NCBI GenBank assembly: GCA_002917775.1
Contig: KZ627153.1
Location: forward strand, 519,806 to 583,805
Length of the DNA stretch: 64,000 nucleotides
Direction of reading: 5' to 3'
Source: Glaciozyma antarctica PI12
Lineage: Eukaryota > Basidiomycota > Microbotryomycetes > Kriegeriales > Camptobasidiaceae
Part shown: positions 165-64,000 of the stretch, in pieces
Position numbering within the stretch: the first letter of the stretch is position 1
Layout of the letters: each line of letters begins with the position of its first letter
Position numbers and translations under genes: made by a program
The notes under the pieces: model-generated
Database searches by the model: none
What the model was told of the DNA's origin: nothing
What the model saw: only the letters and a program-made list of their open reading frames with translations

Positions 165-1763
165 TCAATACCTCGGCCTCTTATCATCTCCATACCCACC
201 TCGCTGCGGCCCCTCAAACTCCCTCTTCGGCGGACCCATCCCAGCCCCACCCGCTCTCGCACCGTAACCACTATCCGGCCCGTTCTGACCCTGGAACCCT
301 CCTCCAGGCGCGCCGCCAAACCCTCCTCCGCCACGAGGAGCGAACCCACCTCGTCCCCCGTCGTTCCCACCGAACCCACCTCCTCCTCCGCGGTACCCTC
401 CTCCGCCACCCATCCCACCTCCAGGAGGTCCACCCATTCCGCTGCCGGGAGGACCACCGTAGCCACCTCGTCCGCCGTCAAAGGATCCTCCGCCACGATC
501 TCCGCCGAACCCACCCCTGCGCACACAAACTCGTCAGCTCCCATCCCTCCTCCCCCACTCGCACACGGAAACGCACCTTCCACGATCCCCAAAGCCTCCT
601 CCTCCCCTATCGCCTCCAAACCCACCACGGTACCCTCCTCGATCTCCTCCAAACCCTCCCCTATCTCCTCCTCCTCCTCCTCCTCCAAACCCACCTCGAT
701 CTCCGTACCCTCCTCCTCCTCCAAAGTTGCCCCGCGGCTGGAACCCCCCACGCTGCACGAATCCACCGCGTCCGCCTCGAGGCGCGAAGCCTCCTCGAGG
801 GGGGCCAAAGTTGCCTGGTCCGAACGCGTCGGGAGGAGCTGGGAGGAGGTCAGTATGGGGAGGAGGATGGGGGCAGAGAACGTACGAGCTGAGAGAGGCT
901 TGGGACGGCCACCGAGGCCGCCGCCCAGACGACGGGGCTTCCAGCCCTTGACGGTGCGGCCTCGCTCAACGTCGATGAGGAGTCGACGGTTCATGAGTTT
1001 GAGACCTTCGGCGTCCTTGTACGCCGCTGCACGAGCGCGTTAGCTCCTCGCGCCCACCAGTCACACGAGGGAGGAACGCACCCTTCATATCCTTCTCCCG
1101 CTCGTAGACTAGGAAAGCGTAGCCCCTGCTCTTCCCATCCTTCTTGCGCACGACGCGAACGCGCTCTAGAGGACCGTACATCTCGAACTCGCGTCGAAGG
1201 TCGGCTTCGGTGCAGGCGTAAGGGAGGCGTCCGACGAAGAGAGTCTTGTAAGGGTCTCCAACGGCTTCCTCGTCCTCTGCAGGATCGTCTGCGAGTTCGT
1301 TATGAGTACGCGTAGCGCTGGGAGGACGAGGAGAGGACCTACACTCCTTGATGCCCTTCTCCAGGTTCTCAGCATGCTTCTTCTTCCGTTCAGCAGCGCG
1401 CTTGATCCGAGCCTCCTCAGCCGTAAGGGTGAAGATCCCCTCCTTATCTCCTACTTCCTCCCCCTCTTCTGGCAGCTTGCCCTCTGCCACCTCCTTCTCC
1501 TCTAACTTGGCCTTCTCCTCCTTGATCAACTTGAGCGTCTCTGCCACTCCCAGAGACGGGGGCTTGCGCGCGAAAGACTGGAGAGGAACATCGGGGTCAC
1601 GGCCCGTTGGCTTGAGGTAGGGGAGAGGCGGGCGAGGGGCGAAGAGCTTGAGGAGGTTGGGAGGGAGGAGATGGGTCTTTTGGGAGAGGGCGGGAGAAGG
1701 GGGTTAGTGGGGCGCAGGAGGGCCAGGCTGCGGGTGTGAGAGAGAGGTTCTTACTCCGACCAT
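165..1763 (-). CDS. SNP1: U1 snRNP 70 kDa protein (U1-70K)
   Basis: Binds stem-loop I of U1 snRNA and helps define 5' splice sites. Six exons join in frame: 1763-1755, 1676-1343, 1288-1082, 1026-886, 838-577 and 516-165, giving 434 aa. The N-terminus ([20 protein letters not shown]) is the conserved U1-70K N-terminal segment. A helical linker then leads to one RRM: RNP2 is [13 protein letters not shown]1 is [10 protein letters not shown], and the family signature [20 protein letters not shown] follows it. The C-terminal ~200 residues are Gly/Arg-rich (GGFGGDRGG-type repeats) in place of the RS/RE tail of animal proteins, and end [20 protein letters not shown]. The first exon codes for only three residues (MVG). 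Head to head with the disulfide isomerase gene, 138 bp away. Identity is secure; the splice model is read by eye. Confidence 0.93.
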
Positions 1764-11825: not shown

Positions 11826-13015
11826 ATGGCGTTCACACCCCTTCCCTCTCTCATCGGAGGCGTGATGCTCGCTCTCTACACCTCCTCTCTCGCGGCGCTC
11901 GAAGGCTCAGTCCTTGGCATCTCTGGTATCGCACACGCGACTGTGTCGGATAACCTGCGACTACGGGATAACGGAAAGAAGCAGCCTGCCGGGGCGGGGT
12001 GGAAAGCGGCGAGCTTCGTCGGGCTTTTGGCGGGAGGAGCGCTGTTGTCGATCTTCAAATCACCGCTCGAGGTCTTGCTGGGGGGAGCCGTGTTTGACGC
12101 GCCTACAGCAGCGTCGCTGGCGAGGATCGTCTTCGCTGGGTTTGCCGTGGGGCTGGGAACGAAGGTGGGTCTGCTTCCCATTCCTCCCGTTGCGAAGTTC
12201 GTTTTCCTAACTCGGTCACTCCCTCCGCAGCTCGGTAACGGCTGCACTTCCGGTAAGACTGCCGCAGCTTCTATCGACATGAGCGAAAGCTAATCCATCC
12301 TCCCCAGGCCATATGCTCTGCGGCCTCGGACGCCTCTCCTACCGATCCCTCATCGCCACCCTCTCCTTCTTCTCCGTCGCCCTCCTCACGGCCCAATCCT
12401 TCCCCGCCTCTCTCCCATCTCTCTCCCCCTCCTCCCCCTCTCTCGACCTCACCACCATCCTCCTCCTCCAACTTCCCTTCGCACTCTACACGACCCTCCC
12501 TCACTTCCTCCCTCGCCGCCTTGCCAAACCCCTAACGACATTCCTCATCGGCGTTCACTTCTCCCTGGGCCTCGCACTGGCAGGAATGACGAAGCCATCA
12601 AAAGTCCTAGGCTTCTTCTACCTCCCTTTGCCATTCCTACCGATGGCGGCGGAGCGAGCTTGGGACCCCTCGCTGGCGATGGTGGCGATCGGAGGATTGC
12701 TGCCCAATATCCTCGCGTGGAGCGTGCTGAAGAACTGGTCTCGCCCCATGTTTGCGGACAGTTGGGCGATGCCGACGCGCTGCGATATCGACTGGAAGCT
12801 CGTCGGTGGCGCCGCGCTATTTGGGTTGGGCTGGGGTGAGTTCTCGCTCTATAGCCTTGCGAAGCTCGTTGCTGATCAAGCTTGTGCGAACAGGTCTACA
12901 AGGACTCTGCCCTGGTCCGCTACTGGCTACGCTGGGATCGGGAACGGCGTTGGGCACGACTGCACCGTTCTTCGTCGCGTTTGTGGCGGGAGGAGCGGTG
13001 GGGAACCTTGTATAG
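11826..13015 (+). CDS. YeeE/YedE-family (DUF6691-type) membrane transporter
   Basis: Many hydrophobic helices (LPSLIGGVMLALYTSSLAAL, ASFVGLLAGGALLSIF and others) with the two family signatures. LGNGCTSGHMLCGLGRLS lies across two introns; the second repeat's GLQGLCPGPLL lies near the C-terminus. Bacterial YeeE/TsuA members import thiosulfate through conserved cysteines in these motifs; sulfur-compound uptake here is an inference from family. Four exons join in frame. The final exon starts at GLQGLCPGP and ends AGGAVGNLV. The two half-repeats are fused in one chain, as is usual in fungi. The start MAFTPLPSLIGG directly precedes the first helix. Confidence 0.85.
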
Positions 13016-13111
13016 ACGTGATAGAACAGGCGGCCTTGTGCATAGAACCGAGCGACGTAATCATACACGGTATCATTAACAACGTCCGCGAAACTCCAAC
13101 AAAAGTACTGC

Positions 13112-16009
13112 CTAATCCTCCCTCAACGTAAACCCACTCTCCCCCGCCGAAGCCGTCCCCATCTTCCTCGTCGTCGACCTCCCCCTCGTCCTCTCCCTCT
13201 GCCCACCCTCCACCCTTGCCTCCCCATCCACAATCCGACTCTTGAGCCTAACGCACATCATCGCTCCAAGTGAGACGCTGAACAAGCCCACGGCGATCCA
13301 GAACATGAGTTCCGGGAAATCGACGCGCTTATCCACGCTCTTGAAGTAGACGACTCCGAACAAGATCGGTCCGATGACTTGTGCGCCGAGGGATTGAAGG
13401 ACGGAGAGAGAGGCGAAGAGTCGTCCGGCGTCGCGCGGGGAAGCGAGGGCGAGAGCGAGGGATTGGATCGCGGGAGAGGCGCCGCCTCCTAGGGCTTCGA
13501 TGGCAGTGGCAACGAGGAAGAGGGTTGGGGAACCACCGTTGAGGGCTAGGATGATGTAGCCTAAGATGTCGATCGAGATGGAGGCGCGAGCGAGGAGGAG
13601 GTCGAAGTCTGTGCGAAGTGTCAGCGTCGGTTCGGGCGCGAGGTGAGAAGGACGCACGAGAGTCGTGCACGACCCGAAGGTATTTCGCCTCGTCCTCCCA
13701 CTCCTTCTGTTCCTTCGTGAGCCTCGAAGAGCTAGATGCGCCATCGAGCTCGATGAGATCGCCTTCGGGCCTCGGAGTGGCGGGGACCGGTGGGGGCTTG
13801 CGAAAGGTCTTGATGAGGAGGGGGAGAGCGATGATGAGGACGAAGACGCGGGTTCCGCCAATGAAGGAGAGGTAGTAGCCGTTCTCTTGAGGACCCCAGC
13901 TGAACTTGTAGCCCGTGTACACTGCGAGGCGAAACGTTGGTCAGTCGGCGAACGTATGAGGTGGGAACGAGGAGCGCACTGATTTTGACGCCCAGGATAG
14001 CCTGCAGAAGCCTCGTCAGCAGCTGCCTCGACGCAGATGAGAGGGAAAGGACGTACCATCACCATCATATAGCTCCCGTACCCCACGGCAATCTTGGTCA
14101 ACTCCCAACTCCTCCCGCCCACCTTCCTTCCCCTACTTTCAATCACCGGTCTATCCTCCTCCTTCTCCTCCCCCCTCTTCTTCGGCAACAGCAGCGCAAG
14201 AGGCTTGAGGAACCAAAACCCCTTCGCCAGCAACGTCCCACCCCAGATCCCCAGCACCGCTCGCCACCCCTCCGCTCCGTCGTACGCCCTCTTCTCCACC
14301 TCCTTCCGTTCCTCGACCTCCTCCACATGTCGCTTCCGCGCCTCGAGCTGCCGCACGATCGAGAGGCTCTCGGGGAAGACGACGAGGATGACGAGGAGGT
14401 AAACGATGTGCATCGTCAAGGCGACGTAGAAGGGGGTGAGGACGGATCCAGTGAGGCGGATGAGGAAGGCGCCGAGGACTGGGCCAATGGCGATACCTCC
14501 GAACAAAAGTCCACCGACAACGGAAAAGATGCGCGCGCGCGAACCGGCATCGGTGCAGTCGGAGAGGTAGGCGTTCGTCGCTGCTGTTGCGGTACTGGAG
14601 AGCGCGGTTAGTGGACGAGGAAGGCGGAGGGGAGAGCGACGCACGACATGCCGCCCAGCAGGCCATCGAAGGCTGGGCCGACGATCAAGAAGCGGTAGCC
14701 AACGACAGCGTGATAGTTGACGACGATGAGGAAGATGGCGTCCATGAAAACGGTCCCGAATAGTGCGAGCGCGAGAATGGGCTTTCGCCCTCGTCGATCA
14801 CTGAGCGAGCCCCAGTAGCCCGTCGTCAAAGCGGACAGGATGCCCATGACGAGCGTCAACGTTGTCGCCTGCGGTCGAAGCATCAGCGAGAGCACATTGA
14901 AGACGGAAGCAAGAAGCTCACCAAGCTCGTAACCGCCTTCTGCACCTCGGGAGACCTCCTGCATTGCTTCGACCACGTATCCCCCTCCGATTCCTCCCAG
15001 CTCATCACGTTCCCCCTCGCAGTCTCGACGAATCTCAAGACCTCCCCATCTTGCCCTTCGGGGAGCTTGACGCCTCCGCCAGCACCCCAAGGACTCGTGT
15101 GGAGGCTTCCGAGCGAGATTGATGGCGGGGGGAGGGTAGTGCCAGATTTGGGACCGATGGCTCGGCAGACGAGTTGGGTGTAGATCTAAGGCGAGTGAGC
15201 GAGATTCGGAGGAAAGGTTGAGTTTTGAATTACCTCGATCTTGGGGGAGCTGAGGATTTGGTGTCAGTGAGGACTGGGAAAGGGAGGGGGAAGAGGACTC
15301 ACATGATCATTCCGATGGAGAGGGACATGATGAGCGTGCCTGGAATGAACCTGCGAGGGAGCGAGGTCGTCAGCAGGTGCGATGTTGGCGAAGCTGAGTC
15401 GAATCTTCGGCGCCGTCAAGCACCGCGAGCAGAGGCACCCTCTTCTGCTGTCCCATCATCAAAAGTGCAGCAACTCCCTCCTTCACAACAAAGCGATCTC
15501 CTTCCTGCATCGCTGCCAGCGGTGCTGAGGTCCGCACCGTCGTCATCACGACATCGCGGCTATCCTGCCCATCCCTCGCCACACCTAGCCAAGTCCATGC
15601 ACGGCCACAATCTAGGAACCGGTACTCACCAGATAGGCGAAGGCCTCTCGTGCCACTTGAGCTTCCTCCTCAAGCTCTTGCTCCTCGACCTCGCTGACCT
15701 CACCCCCCTCTGTCCCTCCTCTTCCTCCAGCTCCTCCTCCTCACCTTCCCCCAGCAACGGCGTCCTCTCCTCTGACACCCCCTTTCCAGCTCTCAGCACA
15801 TCCAGCAGACTCTCCCCTCTCGTGACGCCCGGCCTCGAGCTCGGCGCTTTGCTATGCAGTCCGAGTAGCCGGTCCGCCAGCACGTTGGGCGCGCCCCCTT
15901 CAAGGAAGGTGCTCGAATCGACTGTGTTGGGAGGGAGGTTGATCCGCGAGGTGGACGGGGTCGGAGATGGGGAGGAGGTGCGGCTCGGAGAGAGAGATGG
16001 GGTTGACAT
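13112..16009 (-). CDS. MFS transporter, DHA1-like
   Basis: Major facilitator carrier, probably a proton antiporter in the plasma or vacuolar membrane. After ~125 disordered Ser/Pro- and Glu-rich residues (MSTPSLSPSRTSS onward, with RTPLLGEGEEEEL), membrane helices begin (FIPGTLIMSLSIGMIM). MFS motif A is WGSLSDRRGRKPILAL. Helices 4-6 (YRFLIVGPAFDGLLGG, TAATNAYLSDC, GPVLGAFLIRL) follow; then comes a long cytosolic loop with EEVEERKEVEKRAYDG before the second bundle (ATAIEALGGGASPAIQSLAL). The second cytosolic loop, GASSSSRLTKEQKEWEDEAK, is typical of the fungal YCR023C-like group. At least seven introns. Substrate unknown. Confidence 0.85.
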
Positions 16010-38500: not shown

Positions 38501-41500
38501 AGCCCTCGTCGTCGTGGGTACACAAACACGCCGTCGCCAAACGCCCTCCTCCCCTCGTCAGCCTGCGGATCGAAGTCACCGACCTCCACCTCTTCGTCGA
38601 CCTTCCGCACAACGTTCTTCTATTCGGACACGTCAGGCGACTCCGCGTTCAAGCTTCGAAGGTGATCGGAGCCATCCTCGAGTGGGATATGCTCCTCCTC
38701 GCCGGCGAGAGCCAGACGGTTCGCTCCAAGTGGGAGGACCTCCTTCGGCTGCGGGTCACGACGATCAGCATTTGCCCAGAGCCGGACAACGCGGGTTCGC
38801 AGCCCTTCGTCGTCGTCCTCGCTACCGACTCGGCTCGCCTTCGGATCCCGTTTCGCTACGTCGTCGCCAACATCATCGACAACACCGTCAACCTTGTCAA
38901 GGCGACGAAGCAGCTTGTTCATCAGCTCATCAAGGGCGGACTCGGTTTCATCATCGAGCCCGAAATCGAGCAGGCGAAGCGACTCCCCAAGGTCGAGCTT
39001 CGGGTCAAGATGGTCGCAATCGAGATCCAGGACGACCCGTTCGAGACAAGACTCAACATTATCTGGCGAGCGGGGTACGAGGAGCAGCTGGCGCGGTTGG
39101 CGAGGCAGGCGGCGTTCGAGGCCAAGGTCGAGGCGATTCGCAAGATGGAGGCGCATCAAGGCAAGGAGGAGTCGGACTCGGACAGCGACGACGACAGCAA
39201 TCTCCTCCCTCGTCGTCCCAAGGTCAGCGGGCAGCATTCGATCGGCGTCGAGGAAGCGCGGACGGAACTCAAGACGTACGACTCGTCGCACTGGGCCAAG
39301 CGGATCCGAAACGCCATCGCCGAGCAGGGTCGTCGAGAAGAAGCCCTCACTCGTCGCCTCTACGGTCCTCGCCACAACAGCCAGCGACCCGACGCCCTCC
39401 TCCCCGTCGAGATCCTCCCCGCCAGCCGCTCCGCACCCCTCGCCCGAGCGACGTTCCAGGACGTTCGCTTCGTCATCTCCCGCCCTTCCTTCCCCGCCGA
39501 CAAGCTCTCCGACTTCCTCTTCGACGTTGGCAAAGGCCTTCCTCGCGATACCGACTTCAGCCTCCTCGTCCCGCTGCATTTCTCCTGGAAGCTCGAGGAG
39601 GCGCGCTGCCAGCTCCGCGACTACCCTCTCCCTCTCCTCCACATTCCGCCTATGCCGCAAGGCGGTGGGCACGACTTTGCGGTCTGGGAGTGCGAAGTCG
39701 ACTTTGTCATCGCGGAGGAGATGGGAGGTCCCGAGTCGGTACGGCGGGTCCCCTGCGCCATTGTGCCAGCGGATTCGGCAGGCGGACAGGCGCTCTACTC
39801 GATCGTCGTTCCTCGCTCCGCCATGACGGTCAAGACGTACGCGACGCCGACGGTCCGGATCAAGACTCCGTACGCCACTCGCATCGGCTGGGGCAACTCG
39901 GTCGCACCGGCGATTCAGGACGTCGCCAAGGTCCTCGACACGCTCTCGAAAGCGTCGCCCGACCCCTCCGAGCGCATCGGCTTCTGGGACAAGATCCGCC
40001 TGCAGTTCCACTGGCGCGTCAAGGTCCTCTTCCAGGGCGAAGGACCGGTCCACTTCCACCTCAAGGGGACGCGAGACCCGTACGCCCTCACCGGCTTCGG
40101 CGCAGGATTCTCCAAGGCCTGGCGCGGCAACGTCAAGTTCCTCCTCGGCCTCGAGAACCCCGACCAGGAGTTCTTTCAGATCGAGAGCGACGAGTACATT
40201 CTCGGCATCCCCAACCTTCGCGACTACGTCGACAACGCCGCGACCGGTCTCGCGCAGGATCCGAGCGAGAACAACGACCGTTCGACGCAGCACTCGTTGG
40301 GAACGGGCGACCCGCGAAACCGCTTCGGAAAGGAGGCCGAGTTCATCAAGGTCTTCGCCAAGTTCATCAACGGCGTCCGGTGGGGCTTGGGAGCGGTCCT
40401 CGAGCGCACCTGCCTGCCGGATTGCGCGGAGGGACCTTGCCTCGGGCAGTCGACGTTCCACCGGCAGTGTCGCTTCTTCGACTTCTCGCCGCATTGGGAC
40501 GTTCACACTCGAACCGCGAACGCAGGAATCGGGCCCACTGGAGTCGTGAGCTTCTCTCTTCGCAACGACCGTTTGCCCAGCTAAGCATGAGTATCCGTAG
40601 ATCACCGACTCGTTCCTCGGCTTCCGCTCCGACTTTATCCACTTCTCCATCTCCCTCACCTCGCCCCTCACTCTGAGCCTCCCCTCCAACTCCTCCACCC
40701 CTCTCTCTCCTAGCGACAACGACGGAGAACTCGGCTGCAACAGCCTCCACTTCAGTCCTCAGGCGGCGACGCACTTTTGGGCGTGGTGGAAGCTCTTCGA
40801 CGGCGTCATGTCCCTCCCTATCCGGCAGGGCAAGCTCTTCCCGTCGGCTCAGCCGTCCTCGAAGAAGTTCGGCAAGCACTGCGCGACGATCAAGTACCGC
40901 TTCAGCTTGGCGCCGCTCTTCATCGCGCATACCTACCGCCAGGAATCGTGGGCAGACTGGTCGAAAGGCGAGACGATCGTCGTCGGGCTCAAGGGCAAGA
41001 TCGCACGCTTCAACGTCGACCTTCACCAGCGCGCGCAGGAGGAAGTCGTTCGAGGGCTCGACGGGAAGGAGATGAAGACCGTCGTTCACAAGACGTTTTC
41101 TCAGGCCGAGGTCGACTGCGACGGAGTCGACTTGCGAGTCATCTCCGCGTGCTTCAAGGAGCCCGAGAAGCAGCTCGTTTTGCCTGAGTACGCGGAACTC
41201 GACGTCGATGAACCTCCTCCTTCGACTCACGACTACACCGTCGTCGACGCGGATCTCGAGTGGATCGATATGGACGACTTCGTCGACGCCATCTACTCCA
41301 TCCCCGACCTCAACCCCCAGGTCCGCGTTCTACCCTTTATCGTCTGCCCTCGCTTCACCTACTACCGCCAGAAGGACGCGCGCTCGAAGGACGCCGAGCC
41401 AGAGAACGAGGAGAGGACGCCAGCTTCGCTCCCCAAGACCAAGTTCGGCACCGAGCCTTCTCATACGTGCTTGATGGGAGCTGCAACAGGTACATTTTCC

Positions 41501-44500
41501 CTCCTCCCCTCGCCGCTGTTCGTCTCTGATGAGCCCGTATCCTCAGCCGACACCCTCACCGTCCAGATCGAGTCGGCGAAGGCTCGCCTCGCGGAGCTTG
41601 AGGCAGAATCGCGTTTCGTGAGTCATCCTTGTCGAACGCTGCTTCGTCTTAGACTCACGCTCATCTTTCGCAGCCTTCGCCGGTGTGCAAGGACGGGCCA
41701 CCGAAGCAGATCGCTCTTCGAATCGCGGCGATCCAGCGAATTATCGACCGTCTCGTTCAAGTCCGCGATGGTCTCCACACCGGGGCTGCCGACGACCAGA
41801 ACAAGTCGCAACACTTTCATTTCGAGACGCAGATTCCCAAGTCGGATTCGCCGTACGGTCGACCTCCACCGATGCCGGCGACGGAAGGCGAGGATCAGGG
41901 CGGCGAGGGCGCACACCTCCCGCACATCACGTCGAAGCTTTATCAAGAGTGGACCGAGTGGGAGAACCGCTACATGGTCCACAACCCGACGATCCAAGTC
42001 TCCAACATCACCCGCGACGTCCTCCTCAACTACTACTACTCGTCTCGCGAACGACGCGGCTTCGTCTACCACCTCTCCGCGTCGGCCATCAAGTTCCTTC
42101 GCGACCTCACCAAGCAGAGCGAGAAGAAGTCCGAGCACAAGGGATCTCGCCACAAGTCGAGCACGAGTCGAACCGGATCGGCGAGGAAACGAACCGTTCT
42201 GGAGGAGACGCAGCAGACGAATCGCTTGCTCGACAACCTCCTCAACAGCGGCAGCGACGGCAAGTTCTGGGCTTCGAACGAGTCTACGGACGACGGTCGT
42301 CGCTCCTTTGGATTCGGAGCCGCTCTCGACGTCGATCCGGAGTCGGCAGCCGACAGTCTTCCCGACGCCTTCGATCTCCAACCCGGCCACCTCTGCATGT
42401 TCATCAAGCCTCAAATCGCCCTTCAGAGCGACGTCGACAACAAGTCGACCATCATCCTCACCGCCTTCCGCGCCCAGCTCAAGGTCTTCTCCGTCGTTGA
42501 CCTGCGGACGCCCGACGACCCCGTCAACGCACAAGTCCTCAGCCAGACGTTCGGGACCCTCGACGGCCTTCAAGCCTTCTACCCTCGCGAGCAGTATCAT
42601 CGCGAGAGCCGCATGGGGACGACGTTTGTTCCCCTCGAGACCCTGATCGACCTTCGCGTCGAACCCTGGGGATTCGATCGCGTCGTTCCTCGCACGTCGG
42701 CTGCGTTGCGCTACGACAAGTTCAACCAGCTTCGCATGAGTTCAAAGAACGGCTACGACGACGGCTTCCACCCCGCAGGACCGCAGGATAGCCATTTCCA
42801 GACTGGAACCGATCGGTGAGTGCTCGACTCGAAGCGCACGCACGGAGGACTGACCTCGCTCCTCAGAATCTCCGTCGAATGCGACAAGTTCTCGGTCTCT
42901 GCCAACCCCGATCACTTCGCCGCCATCTACAACGTCGTCACCGACCTCCTTCTCTACAGCGACCCCCTCCAGAAGTCGAGAAGCAAAGAACTCGAGGCAG
43001 TCGTCTTCACTCACGACTTTTCGGATATCGCCGGAGCGATCAAGATCGTCGTGGACCTTCAGCAGCGTATTCGAAGCCTTGTGGACCTCGCGCAGCAGTA
43101 CCAAGCGCACCTGGACGAGCTCGACGACGAAGGTCGCTATGAGCTATTCGTTGCCCGCGCCGAATTCACCAAGCTCTCGAACAAGCTCAACCTCGTCGTC
43201 CTCGGCATCACGCGCGCGCAGGACTTCAACGGAGTCGCCAAGACGGTCAGCAAGACGGCCGGAATCCAGTTCGAGGCGAGGGCGTCGGAGCTCGTCTGGC
43301 ACATGCTCGACAAGTCGGACACGCCCTTCACCAAGTTCTCCGTCAAGGGCGTCGAGTTCTCGTGGATCAGCAAGCAGGATAGCTCGGTATCGAACCGCCT
43401 CGTCATCAAGGACCTCAAGGCGCTCAACAGCAGCCCCGAGCAGGTCTTCGCCGAGATCATTGCGAAGCACGAGCACGTCCCAGACCACGAGCTCTGCAAG
43501 GTCGACGTCTTCGCTGCGCTTCTTTGGAACGCTCTGGCGCCCGTCGGCGGCATCTCGATTGTAGAGCAGTTCGAGCTCCACCTGCACCCCGTTCGCCTGC
43601 AGCTCGAGCATCGCGTCGGACGCCAAATCCTCGACTACGTTTTCTCGCAGCGCCGGAGCAAGCCCGCCGAGGAGGAAGACGGATCGACCGGCAGCGACAC
43701 CCCTCCCGCCAAATCCAGTCGCCACTCCCTTTCCCCTCTCACTCCGAACAAAGTCGCTAGCCGCTCAGTCGAGTCTCTCGCACTCAACAAGGAAAGGACG
43801 CCAAATCTCTCGGGACAGTCTTCGTCGGCAGTGTCGATCAACGGCGAGCATCGGCTTCAGAGGACGACTTCAAAGGAGGTTCTCGCGCCGTCGGGAGTGG
43901 AGGAGGGTCTCAATGCGGACGAGATGCGCTTGCGAGCTGCGCTGAATCGCACATTCATCCTCGTCGACTTCACGTCAACGGTGCTTTGCCTGACGTATCG
44001 CGTGAGTTGTTCCTTTCGCGGCTGCGTTCGACAGCGCTAACTCCTTTCGTGCAGTCCGAGAGGGAAGATCACAGTCGACTCCCCGACATCTACAACATCA
44101 CGTACAAGACGCCGAGCATTCAATATCGAAGCAAGACCTGGTCGTTCTTAGATCTCCTCGACGAGCTCAAGCGAGGTGCGCCTTCTCCCTTTCCTTCCGC
44201 CTTTTTGTTTCCGGCTGACCGCGGTCCGCAGATATCATCAAGTCTGTTTGGTCACAGAAAGGAGCTCTTCTTGGGCAACTTCTACAAACGGCCCACCGAC
44301 GCCTCCCTCTCCACGACGCGCGAAGCGCCGCCAAAGCGTCCCTCACCGCCAGTCTCAAGTCCCGCATCCACCCCAAAAGCCGTACCGCGACCCCCAGCCA
44401 CGAGCACTCCCGCCCACCTTCAAGCCCTCTTCGCCTCACTGTCAAGCAGCCCACGGGGAGTTCGATCTCAAGCACGCGGCAGCAGTCGTCCGAGTCGAGC

Positions 44501-58977: not shown

Positions 58978-61900
58978 ATGGCATTTGCTGGCAAGTTCGG
59001 AGGAGGAGGAGGAGGCAAGAAAGGACCTCGCGCCCACCTGGGCTCCTTCAAGAACAAGCAAGTCAAGCTCCGCCCCGCGCCCGAGAAGCGCGCCACCGAC
59101 GCGACAAAGGGCGAACAGGCGTATCCAGGCGAGGACGGACCTCAGGACGAGGAGGAGGAGATGGAAGAAGGAGAGGACGAGTACGGCTACAGGGAGAACC
59201 TGCGCAAGGAGGTCAAGCCGTGCGAGGGGATGGTCATCAGCGTGACGGGGTGCAAGGACTCCAAGGCGCAGCTTCTCGAGATCGCGGCCGAGATGGGAGG
59301 CGTAGGGAAGGGAGACCTCGAGGCTGATACTACGCACCTCATCGCGGACGCGCAAGGGAGTGCCAAGTACGAGGTGCGTCCTTGTTGTTCAGAGAGGCGG
59401 GACTGGAGCTGACCTCCAGGGACTACGCAGGGAGCGCTGGCGTACAAGCGCCAGTACAACATCAAGATCATGATGCCGGATTGGCTTGTAGCTGTGCGCG
59501 ATGCCTGGACCAGGGCGCTTCCTGTCGACTACGGCTTGGTGAGGACCTCCCCCTCTTCTTCCCTTCGCGAACTGCTGCTGACGTCCTCTTTTAGCTCGAA
59601 GCCGAGTATGTCATGCGTCCATTTCATGGCTTCAATATCTCTGTCACCAACTTTGCTCGAGGTAGGCTTCCTCACGACCCAACTTTCTTCGCATCTAACC
59701 CGTCGCACAGGACCCCACAAGGACGAATTCCGCGAGTTCCTCATCGCCAACGGCGCATCATTCCACACCAACCTCTCCAAGAAGAGCACCCACCTCATCG
59801 TCGCCTCTCCTTCCTCTCCGCACTCCCAAAATAACCCGAAGAAGCTCAACGACGCACGCAAGGTCAAGAACCTCAAGATCGTCTGGGAAGGCTGGGCGCA
59901 CGAAGTCGTCGCGCAAGGCGGCGAGCGCAGGTCTCGCACAGAGCTTTGGAGCTGGAAGGCGGGAGGGATGGAGCCGACGGAGGAGGAGTTGTTGGAGGTC
60001 TCTTCGCGCAACGCGGCCGAGGAGCAGGAGACGACGCATGCGGCTCCCGAGGTTGAGAGGGAGCGGGAGGATGAGCGGGAGGAGCGGACGATCATGCCGA
60101 GTCGCAAGATCAAGGCGCGCGGAGCGAAGCAGGAGCTTTTGGCGGTCAACACGCTTCTCCAGGGCTATTCGGGATCGCAGCCGACTCGCGTGCGCGCGGA
60201 GGAGGAGGACGATACGCAACTTCTGCATAACCTCGAGGTGACGAGGGCGAAGGACGTCGGGCTGTCGATGGAGCTCGTCGAGGATACGAACCGTCTCGGT
60301 GCGAAGGGGAAGTCGGTCATCAAGGCGCTCTCGAACTCGCGCTCTTCCTCCTTTCACGGCTCAGTCCCCGCGCGACTCAAGACGCTTGGAACGACGAAGC
60401 CGCTTCCGAATCGGGACGATGGCCCGTCGGCGGCGGACGATTCAGCCTTCTTCGAGGACTCGGCGCTGGTACCGAAGATGGTCGAGGAGGAGGAGGAGGA
60501 CCTGCAGATCTTCGCAGGGAAGTCATTTGCGCTCATGGCGATGGTCGGGGATGCGGGCGAGACCGTGGGCTCTGCGGTGGAGAAGCTCGGGGGGAAGGTC
60601 TCGTTTGACGAGGGAGAAGGCGAGGCGGATTGGGTTTGTGTGCCTCACGTCGAGTGAGTCGTTCCAGTGCGTTCCGCGCTGGGCTGAGCTAACGTTCGAA
60701 CGATCCTTCAGACCGCCATTGCAGTACATCGACTCGACGGATCCACGAATCGTCACCGCGTGCTGGGTCGAGCTCTGCATGTTCGCAGGCGAATTCATCC
60801 TCCCAGCCGATCGTCTACTTGAGAAGCCTATTCCATACGCAGTCCCCGTTCCTGGTACGTTTCCGTTCATTACTTCGTGGTCGTCCTTCTAACGTTCTCC
60901 CCAGGTGCCAAGGAGCTCGACGTGGCCTACTCTGGCTTCACCGACGTCGCGTGTGTGCACCTCGTCCGCTTCATCTCCGCCCTCGGTTCGTCTCCTTTCT
61001 TCCTCTCTGAATCTGCGCCCTAACGTCTGTTCCGCAGGTGGCAAGTCCGACGTCGTCTTCGACAAGACGCGCTCGCATCTCATTCACGCCGCTGTCGACG
61101 AGGGTCTCGAGCCGACTGGATTGAAGGTTACTTGCGCGAAGCTCTGGGGGATCCCGGTGGTGGGGTTGAGCTGGTTGAGGGAATTTGGGGCGAGGAAGGC
61201 CGAGGAGAGGAATAGGGAGCGGGAGAGGAAGGGGAAGGGGAGGGCGGTGGAGGAGGTACCGACGGATATCACGAACGCTGGTGAGTGGCTTCCAGGATCA
61301 GGAGATAGAAGCTGGAGCTGATCTGAGCTCCAGGAACGGACGATCGCACCGGAAGGACTTCGAGGTCAACGAGTCGCGCTGGAGGTGTTCTCGCCGGGTG
61401 TACTGTGTTGGTGTCGAGGAAAGGCGAGGTGAGTACTTATTCTCGCTCGCACGAGCTGGGCAACTTACGCGACGACTCACAGTGCGATCGGGTCAAGCTC
61501 TCCGACGACGTCAAGGCCGCTGGCGGAGAAGTCGTTCAGTCCTTCTCGACCAGCGTCACGCATCTCGTGTACTCGAGCTCGAAGATCAACGAGACGTTCG
61601 CCGAGTTTAAGAACGCGCGCAAGGCGAACGTCGAGATCATTCACCCTTCCTGGGTCGACGAGGTGCGTTTTTACTCGAGGTTTGCTCTCTCGACGTCGTT
61701 GACTCTTTCTCCCATGCGCAGAGCATCTCTTCCGGCGTTCGGCAGAACAAGGGCGACTTCCCGCATACCTACGATCCCAAGAAGGGGGGTCAACTTTCTG
61801 GCCTCGTCGTCTCCCCTCTCCGTGCCCACCCTCCTCGCCTCTCCTCCACCTCTCCCGCCAAGACAGAACGCACAGACTCGAGGCAGTCCTCACGATCTGC

Positions 61901-62783
61901 GTTCTTTGGAGGACCGTCAACGAGCGAGGTCTTTGATGTCGACCTGCCGGTCGTCGGCCTTGTCCCAACTACGGCAGTCGACTCTTTCGAGATAGGACAG
62001 GCCGCCGCTCCCGCCGCAGCGGTCTCCTCCTCGCCAGGCGAAGCGAACGAGTCGTTCATGCAGCTTCCGGATTCGTGCCAGCCCTCGAACGCGCAGGCTG
62101 CGGGGAACGGACGCGACGCGTCGGAGGACTTTGGCGACGATTTGGGAGGAATGGGCTCGTTGATCTTTCCCGAACAGTCGCCTGCCGTCCTCGTTCCCTC
62201 GTCTCCGACCTCAGTCGTCGCTGAAGCGGTACTCGACACCTCTTCCGACCCCGTCGACACCGTCGCGCCTCAACCTCTCCCAGCACCTCTTTCGACTCCC
62301 CACGTCCTTCTTCGACAACAGACGTCAGTCCTCAACGGTCTGCTGCAAGCCGAGCCCATCGAATCTACCTCGGCTCGGATGACCCGACGAGGAATGGCGC
62401 GAAAGAGGGTTCGTCTCCGTCCTCCGTCCGTCTGCGTTCCTCACTCACATTTAGCTACTTTGCAGAGCGCGATCGAAGCTCCGGACAGCCGCATCTCCTC
62501 TCACGGATCCCCCGTCCTCCCTCCCGCCGCCGACGTCCCCCGCCGCGTCCCAGGGATGGGTATCGAGCCGACTCAGTTCACCCAGTATGAGGAGGACAGC
62601 ATGGACGTCATGTACGAGGATCCTGCGGCGCTCAAAGCGAGGGAGAAGATTCTTGCTGCGCTGGGAGGGGGTTCAAAGGCGCCTGAAGTGGCGGAGGGTG
62701 GGCAGGGCAGCAAGCCGGGGTCTTTCGGGGTGGAGGAGCTTTCGCATGCGAAGAAGGGGAGGAGCACGAGGTCGAAAAAGTAG
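58978..62783 (+). CDS. DPB11/Rad4/TopBP1 multi-BRCT replication-checkpoint scaffold
   Basis: Phosphopeptide-binding scaffold needed for origin firing and ATR/Mec1 activation. The basic N-terminus MAFAGKFGGGGGGKKGPRAH is followed by tandem BRCTs. BRCT1 runs from CEGMVISVTGCKDSKAQLLE to MMPDWLVAVRDAW. BRCT2 runs from RPFHGFNISVTNF to VKNLKIVWEGWAHEVV. A linker carries a bipartite-like basic patch (MPSRKIKARG). BRCT3 is LQIFAGKSFALMAMVGDAGE to RIVTACWVELCMFAGEFI. BRCT4 is TDVACVHLVRFISALGGKSD to LWGIPVVGLSWLREFGARKA. A fifth is VLVSRKGE ... VKLSDDVKAAGGEVVQSFST to NVEIIHPSWVDE. The tail has the family motif VMYEDPAALKAREKILAALG and ends RSTRSKK. The trailing W in each repeat is present. Confidence 0.9.
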
Positions 62784-63086
62784 GCGTAGTGTGTATCTTT
62801 GCATTTCGAGTGACGTTCAGCATCTGAATGAGAGAGGGAATCCCTTTCCGTTCGAGTCTTCTGCTTCTCACTCTGAAGTCTCTCTCGGTGGCAAAATTGG
62901 GCAATGGACACGAGTCCATATGATTGCACCAAGAGCGTGTACACCCAGTAAAAGTACAGATGTTGACGGAAAGGTGGGAGTTCCAAAAGGAGGGTGAGGA
63001 TAGAAAAGCGAAGGCGTTCAGGTTTTGACGCAGGAAGCGCTGCGGCACGTCGTCAGCTGCTTATCACGAAGGGGAGGGACCACGCA
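62784..63086. other. Intergenic between convergent 3' ends, 303 bp
   Basis: Between the stops of DPB11 and the collagen-like gene. Nothing recognised. Confidence 0.4.
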
Positions 63087-64000
63087 CTATCCTGAAACAG
63101 TAAGAGTGTTGGGCAGCTTGAAGGATCGGTTGCCGGGAGAACCGGAGCTTGAGATCAGACGCGTGAGTGAGGAAGGGATGGAAGAGGAGAGAGTCAAGCT
63201 TACGAAGTACGCACCACCGCGCAGAGATCGGGGTACGTTTGGCAGGAATACCCGTCGGTGTTGCCAGTCACTAGCCATCCAGTTGGGCACTTCTCGAAAA
63301 CGAAGTAGCTGGCGGTCCCCGGGGCAACTGTTCGGCGGTTTGAGTCAGTCTTGGGAGCTGGATCACCGGGAATCTACGGATTCTCACCAGTTCCAGTCGC
63401 ACCAGTGGGTCCCGCGGGTCCAGTGGCGCCGGCTGCAAGACTCAAGGTATCAGCGAGCGTTGAAGCGAGAGGGATTCGCTGGACGCACCAGGACCGGTGG
63501 GGCCAGTCATACCGGTGTCGCCCTTGGCGCCAGCAGCTCCAGCTGAATGATCGGGGAGACGTCAGCGAGCACCGGTGCGAGAGAAGCGAGAGGCGTACCA
63601 GGTCCTTGAATTCCGGGCGAGCCAGCGTCGCCCTTAGCTCCAGCTGCGCCGTCAAGTCCAGCTGAACGATGAGGAAGCGATCAGCGAGCGTCAAAAGAGA
63701 CGGGTACGCTCGAGCTCGACGACGTACCAGGTCCTTGAATTCCGGGCGAGCCAGCGTCGCCCTTAGCTCCAGCTGCGCCGTCAAGTCCAGCTGAACGATG
63801 AGGAAGCGATCAGCGAGCGTCAAAAGAGACGGGTACGCTCGAGCTCGACGACGTACCAGGTCCTTGAATTCCGGGCGAGCCAGCGTCGCCCTTAGCTCCA
63901 GCTGCGCCGTCAAGTCCAGCTGAACGATGAGGAAGCGATCAGCGAGCGTCAAAAGAGACGGGTACGCTCGAGCTCGACGACGTACCAGGTCCTAAGGGCG
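63087..64000 (-). CDS. Collagen-like protein (3' part; 5' end beyond the window)
   Basis: Gly-X-Y protein, probably secreted or cell-wall, in small exons. From right to left: a partial exon (63986-64000), three identical 63-bp exons (63857-63919, 63728-63790, 63599-63661; seven triplets each, including GLD, GAK, GDA, GSP and GIQ), a 54-bp exon (63489-63542; triplets GAK, GDT, GMT, GPT) and a 45-bp exon (63388-63432; GAT, GPA, GPT, GAT). All are phase 1 and multiples of 9 bp. A non-collagen C-terminus starts at 63327: APGTASYFVFEKCPTGWLV then NTDGYSCQTYPDLCAVV, with three Cys. A last exon (SGSPGNRSFKLPNTLTVSG, stop 63087-63089) joins in frame only by a GC-AG intron (63148-63212); otherwise the frame ends earlier at TAA after AVVRTS. 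Confidence 0.8.
63599..63985 (-). repeat. Tandem 129-bp exon+intron unit, three identical copies
   Basis: Units begin at 63599, 63728 and 63857, period 129 bp. Each is a 63-bp collagen exon plus a 66-bp intron (donor GTACGTCG or the like, branch GCTGATC, acceptor GTTCAG). By eye the three copies match at every base through both exon and intron, except for the intron on the left of copy 1, which differs. Identity in the introns points to recent unequal exchange. The array may go on past the window edge. Confidence 0.9.

Follow-up and report, generated by a model that had tools for sequence, protein, structure and literature searches.

What produced a row of Gly-X-Y exons that all share one phase and a length divisible by nine, and what kind of protein do these exons belong to? 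The locus lies on the minus strand at the end of a 64,000-nucleotide stretch of DNA, which we refer to throughout as the window. A preliminary description had placed a fungal collagen gene at 63388–64000 and had taken its regular layout as convergent with that of vertebrate fibrillar collagens. The sequence bore out its exon coordinates, lengths, and phase: there were five complete Gly-X-Y exons of 63, 63, 63, 54, and 45 bp (7, 7, 7, 6, and 5 triplets), all multiples of 9 bp and all in phase 1. At every junction around these exons, including those with the 66-nt intron upstream and the 60-nt intron downstream, the Y codon was split after its first base, and the bounding introns were of the GT-AG type with lengths of 56–66 nt. 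The window contained 32 Gly-X-Y triplets of the gene in all. The collagen exons stood as described, but the gene did not end at 63388, as it ran on to a TGA stop in a last exon at 63018 (Table 1). Introns in the gene as a whole measured 48–66 nt and GC content along the window was 56–64%, both of which fit basidiomycete yeasts. Intron style and the neighbouring genes are the grounds for taking the organism as a fungus, and some other intron-rich eukaryote is a very improbable source.

Table 1 Features of the collagen-like gene and its tandem array, listed in the direction of transcription after the array.
Feature	Coordinates	Strand	Basis
129-bp tandem array, 3.1 copies, each a 63-bp Gly-X-Y exon plus a 66-bp intron	63594..63993	-	TRF score 800, 100% matches
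3' end of a further upstream exon	63986..64000	-	truncated by window end; xCG CCC TTA GGA CCT G, frame by eye
66-nt intron GTACGT..CAG	63920..63985	-	upstream 81 nt = 15 exon + 66 intron
63-bp exon copy 1, 7 Gly-X-Y triplets	63857..63919	-	sequence and splice sites
66-nt intron, in-frame stop when retained	63791..63856	-	sequence
63-bp exon copy 2, identical	63728..63790	-	sequence and splice sites
66-nt intron, identical	63662..63727	-	sequence
63-bp exon copy 3, identical	63599..63661	-	sequence and splice sites
56-nt intron 56a, resembles 66-nt intron	63543..63598	-	intron comparison
54-bp exon, 6 triplets; 63-bp exon without one GLD triplet	63489..63542	-	alignment
56-nt intron 56b, resembles 66-nt intron	63433..63488	-	intron comparison
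45-bp exon, 5 triplets, Thr-rich	63388..63432	-	sequence and splice sites
60-nt intron ahead of C-terminal domain	63328..63387	-	sequence and splice sites
124-bp exon, first part of collar-like domain	63204..63327	-	Pfam match and alignment
56-nt intron 56c GTAAGC..AAG; removal completes collar match	63148..63203	-	best of 15 GT-AG combinations
60-bp exon, second part of collar-like domain	63088..63147	-	gene model
48-nt intron GTGCGT..CAG	63040..63087	-	inferred from splice signals and resulting C-terminus
Last exon, C-terminus GYASCVKT + TGA	63018..63039	-	[IVLM]-K-x endings of relatives (matches listed)

The Gly-X-Y translation, taken with the first 42 residues beyond it, matched Pfam PF01391 Collagen at 60.9 bits (cut-off 27.2, E = 1e-16), which upholds the reading as a collagen-like gene. 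Raw Gly-X-Y runs of 7, 7, 7, 6, and 5 triplets, the last triplet of each including intron bases, were co-linear inside ~530 bp on the minus strand. Of 200 shuffled windows, one had a longest run of 7 triplets, two reached 6, 50 reached 5, and the remaining 147 stopped at 4 or 3. Run length alone does not discriminate, because glycine-rich stretches elsewhere in the window reached 10 and 7 triplets. The accidental run of 10 fell in a frame at 363–731 (minus strand) with GGFGGGG-type repeats, which presumably resembles an RNA-binding protein more than a collagen. Searching PDB with the Gly-X-Y part returned mostly animal collagen chains, as expected from composition alone, and NCBIfam returned bacterial collagen-like adhesins with scores far under their cut-offs. 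A 25-base exon pattern searched as DNA had zero matches in the viral contigs.

On retention, the 66-, 56b-, and 60-nt introns would each introduce an in-frame stop; 56a had no stop of its own and would shift the frame by two. Skipping of an exon would keep the frame, a point made earlier that holds by arithmetic. Among the 18 distinct triplets, Pro occurred at X in five and at Y in one, and Thr occurred at Y in six, a composition that fits a helix without reliance on hydroxyproline. Upstream, in the truncated exon at the window end, the triplet preceding the last Gly begins with a residue other than Gly. The collagenous part may begin in this exon, for a total of ~33 triplets, or the repeat may instead be interrupted there.

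The three 63-bp exons were identical members of a single array. Its 129-bp periodicity was exact across 400 bp and lost on both flanks, a separate repeat search likewise gave 100% identity, and the same 13 bp stood at each end. Since these exons are array copies of one another, the number of independent exon types is only three; the regularity previously read from the 63-bp exons is present, but they are not independent witnesses to it. Identity through 400 bp with introns included, in an array next to the window end, would also suit an assembly artefact, in which the genome holds fewer copies or the last 7–9 bases are a fold-back join. The last 9 bases were indeed the reverse complement of a stretch of the array, with a match that stopped short of 10. 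We nonetheless regard an artefact as unlikely, given that the 13 bp shared by both array ends are what unequal exchange would leave, that the frame was intact in all three copies, and that the diverged 54- and 45-bp units suggest older duplications independent of the array.

Duplication beyond the array was suggested by both exons and introns. Alignment of the 54-bp exon with its 63-bp counterpart needed just one gap, of 9 bp (one triplet). Over the 18 aligned codons, differences fell at 11 third, 5 first, and 3 second bases, and in the six aligned Gly codons the third base differed in five and the first two bases in none. This concentration at third bases, Gly codons included, is the mark of what would be an older copy of the 63-bp exon, kept under selection at the protein level. 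The 66-nt intron resembled both 56a and 56b: each pair scored above all 58 comparisons with candidate introns that a pattern search had picked out in other parts of the window (46 comparisons one way, 12 the other), and each score was reached in 1 of 2000 shuffles. The score of the 56a/56b pair was reached in 16 of 2000 shuffles and did not stand out from the candidate pool, where 10/46 and 3/46 comparisons scored as high. The six introns compared gave 12 further pairs, of which one was also similar (56a/56c, 30 of 2000 shuffles). All of these shuffle figures are raw, over 15 pairs.

Phase-matched exons could also have come about without duplication of units, through insertions that placed introns independently at a single preferred position of the Gly-X-Y repeat. 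All five complete Gly-X-Y exons end in G before the intron, which suits a common splice-site preference, and the 56a/56b similarity was weak relative to the intron pool. Such insertions cannot yield identical array copies, however, and the similarity of the 66-nt intron to 56a and 56b and the alignment of the 54- and 63-bp exons with one 9-bp gap also argue against them. We consider this explanation very improbable. The comparisons instead favor duplication: the Gly-X-Y exons outside the array appear to be earlier copies of the exon–intron unit found within it, and most likely one such unit was duplicated, at no fewer than two ages. Equal phase and lengths in multiples of nine follow arithmetically from duplicating an exon–intron unit, and the phase-matched layout is thus most likely a record of duplication.

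Counting from the codon split at the end of the 45-bp exon, the C-terminal domain comprised 68 residues, encoded in three exons spanning 63327–63018. We enumerated 15 GT-AG combinations for this part, and removal of the intron at 63203–63148 ranked first with a score of 25.4 bits, followed by a next-best combination at 17.1. Forms of the collar part without this splice (15.0 bits) or with an alternative donor (13.0 bits) were rejected because their Collar matches were weaker. Among the matches listed, 159 relatives had an observed stop, and 93 of these ended in [IVLM]-K-x (e.g., ACIKY and YCIKT), with the commonest other endings mostly of the GIFPSPT kind. The predicted end, CVKT, looks like that of many relatives, but a likeness over only four residues is no more than suggestive.

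On the opposite strand and tail to tail with the collagen-like gene, a BRCT-domain frame (59413–60654, plus strand, E = 2.2e-8) and a further frame extending to 62783 are probably one intron-containing gene, whose end at 62783 is 234 bp from the collagen gene stop. Long-gene frames at 40601–44040 (plus strand) matched Pfam Hobbit/FMP27 (2.1e-41 for 40601–42643 and 5.9e-38 for 42820–44037), and a DUF6691 protein was found at 12283–13128 (plus strand, E = 6e-17). Further frames in the window were APEH-like, MFS, helicase, and alpha-galactosidase. Scans of the window with Rfam at the gathering threshold and for tRNA genes were empty, and two large window ORFs had no match in PDB.

The domain matched Pfam PF07484 Collar, a phage tail-fibre domain, with scores on either side of the curated cut-off. 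Its first 61 residues alone scored 25.4 bits (E = 1.4e-5) against a cut-off of 24, and the domain with the last exon and the two residues preceding it scored 25.0 bits against the same cut-off. With the Gly-X-Y part attached the score was 22.3 bits, and that of a shortened form was 23.1, both just under the curated cut-off of 24. Pfam at E values up to 10 listed no family beyond Collar for the C-terminal domain and no fibrillar C-propeptide. The earlier idea of a convergent layout held in one part, as independence from animal fibrillar collagens is indirectly supported by the Collar C-terminus and by the lack of any other Pfam family at E ≤ 10, while the regularity itself is now read as duplication.

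Profiles built from relatives separated the domain from shuffled sequence. One profile was made from 134 viral and bacterial collars, those of the 160 loci among the matches listed that carry G-W in the segment; it gave the spliced domain 25.1 bits and the unspliced form 17.1, compared with 13.5 for the highest-scoring of 20,000 shuffles. A profile based on a narrower motif, which kept 7 of the 160 loci listed and was set aside as too strict, scored the spliced domain at 22.4 bits and the top shuffle at 13.2. When the domain was aligned with eight phage and plasmid proteins, 11 columns were invariant, including P-x-G-W-L, Y, L, F, and P. These eight were drawn from 18 matches and consisted of seven with tail or collar names plus the hypothetical protein L002; the ten left out were one duplicate record and nine without a tail name. 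Searched against PDB, a profile of all nine aligned sequences retrieved phage fibres, with 8kec the best (6.5e-11), followed by the T4 short tail fibre 1ocy (2.8e-7), 1pdi, and 5iv5. The window protein ended 13 residues past LPN, while the 159 relatives listed had 79–284 residues beyond the collar core; this long part, a trait of phage tail fibres, was absent.

Searches with the domain itself as query were less productive. PHROGs gave E values of 0.24 and 0.3 only, NCBIfam gave nothing, the best phage tblastn match had E = 0.02, and the two PDB searches made with the C-terminus each ended in a single weak match (E = 5.3 and E = 0.93). Used as a single query in two scans, one of viral contigs and one of genome contigs, the domain had zero confirmed relatives. 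These results, and the borderline scores of the forms that include the collagen part (22.3 and 23.1 bits), would also be expected if the gene encoded an ordinary collagen-like protein of a fungus and if chance or convergence had given its small C-terminal domain a P-x-GWL / Y..L / F-x-LP pattern. This explanation fits less well with a domain that on its own exceeded the curated cut-off and scored far above 20,000 shuffles, or with a best splice that lifted the score from 17.1 to 25.1–25.4 bits.

The order of the two domains bears on the same question. Gly-X-Y runs of at least five triplets were absent from the eight aligned phage and plasmid proteins. Among the first 160 loci (matches listed for queries with two phage collars), two had a same-frame upstream run of at least five triplets, L160 and L135, and in L135 the run was short and 52 residues from the collar. 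A third scan favors the collagen–collar architecture because its query was the L160 collar itself. Across the 239 loci listed (L009–L247), runs of at least eight triplets occurred in six (L160, L169, L170, L171, L179, and L193), and other than in L179 they ended at most two residues from the collar. An overlap test reduced the 239 loci to 218 distinct sequences (25 overlapping pairs), with L160 and L169 being one contig. Gly-X-Y stood directly ahead of a collar in 4/218 distinct viral and bacterial sequences among the matches listed, which is not a natural frequency, and these runs were 10 to 30 triplets long (L160 = L169, L170, L171, and L193). The joint between Gly-X-Y and collar reads GPTGTVTPAGSVQMY in L160 and GATGTVAPGTASYF in the window protein. 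Recurrence of this order in four distinct sequences argues further against a chance likeness, which we judge to be a distinctly unlikely account of the collar.

The viral contigs L160, L170, and L171 had 28–30 triplets directly before the collar, along with same-frame stretches of 37–55 triplets. Cyanophage S-CRM01 (L004 506–1216 and 4979–5171) had two annotated collagen triple helix genes near a collar-domain gene.

The gene has coding capacity, splice signals, repeated units, and a collar-like C-terminus. On balance we think it probable that the locus covers the 3' part of a gene that is intron-rich, eukaryotic, and probably fungal and that encodes a short collagen-like fibre protein. Of this protein the window would specify 32 Gly-X-Y triplets and the 68-residue collar-like domain, with an N-terminal part encoded beyond the window. 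Its product is probably a trimeric surface fibre whose stalk grew by exon–intron duplication. The C-terminal collar domain would hold three chains in register, in the manner of trimeric phage fibres. The stalk, a triple helix wound from the Gly-X-Y part, would either present the collar head or link it to the cell wall. Trimerisation, winding of the stalk, and location at the surface are predictions from domain content. The stalk would lengthen through tandem duplication of the exon–intron unit, and since all stalk junctions fall at one position of the Gly-X-Y register, gain or loss of a unit would leave both the frame and the helix repeat intact. A more specific origin, possible but doubtful, is that the fungus acquired a collagen–collar tail-fibre gene from a phage or prophage. 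The long segment following the collar core would have been lost, introns would have been added, and tandem copying of a unit with its intron would then have extended the stalk, with a domesticated surface fibre as the outcome.

The 54-bp-unit model of collagen gene growth was deduced from very old exons. The window gene has identical exon–intron copies beside diverged ones, with point changes and one triplet lost, and these would represent the same process at two ages. A phage-type head, if true, would provide a concrete route to a collagen with its own trimerising domain in a non-animal eukaryote, and the gene could show how a non-animal cell makes its own collagen and extends it.

Collagen was reportedly described in the fimbriae of Microbotryum, a fungus, by Celerin and colleagues in 1996. 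The preliminary description had suggested Microbotryum as a possible relative, but the analysis lent no support to such a kinship or to a connection with these fimbriae. Among the open-licence papers that we searched (titles and abstract openings among the matches listed), there was no fungal collagen gene with phase-matched duplicated exons and no fungal collagen–collar protein. Metarhizium MCL1 and the Entomophthora PF01391 proteins are fungal and share collagen repeats with the window protein (PMC11105155).

The 54- and 45-bp exons of vertebrate and other metazoan fibrillar collagens have been ascribed to duplication of a unit and unequal crossing-over (PMC2852846), and exons of both lengths are shared with the window gene. 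In fibrillar collagens the Gly codon that opens the unit exon is intact, whereas the window gene splits the Y codon in phase 1, a difference that the preliminary description had rightly drawn (PMC2852846). Fibrillar collagens also have a C-propeptide, in contrast to the collar-like C-terminus here. The E. coli prophage protein EPclA and its kin resemble the window gene in joining a collagen domain to a C-terminal domain of phage-fibre type; in these proteins the collagen domain is stable and the C-terminal domain trimerises (PMC3368898). Their C-terminal domain is Phage_fiber_C (PF06820), while that of the window gene is Collar, and the EPclA genes belong to bacterial prophages (PMC3368898). 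The IMG/VR sequences L160/L169, L170, L171, and L193 follow the same order as the window gene, with Gly-X-Y and then a collar at most two residues apart and with the collar core motifs. They differ from it in part: the L160 frame, the only one read whole, was intronless, and the long segment after the collar core that the 159 listed relatives carry is missing from the window protein. Further Gly-X-Y stretches lay upstream in all four, and in L160 and L170 the triplets at the joint were Thr-rich, as they are in the window gene.
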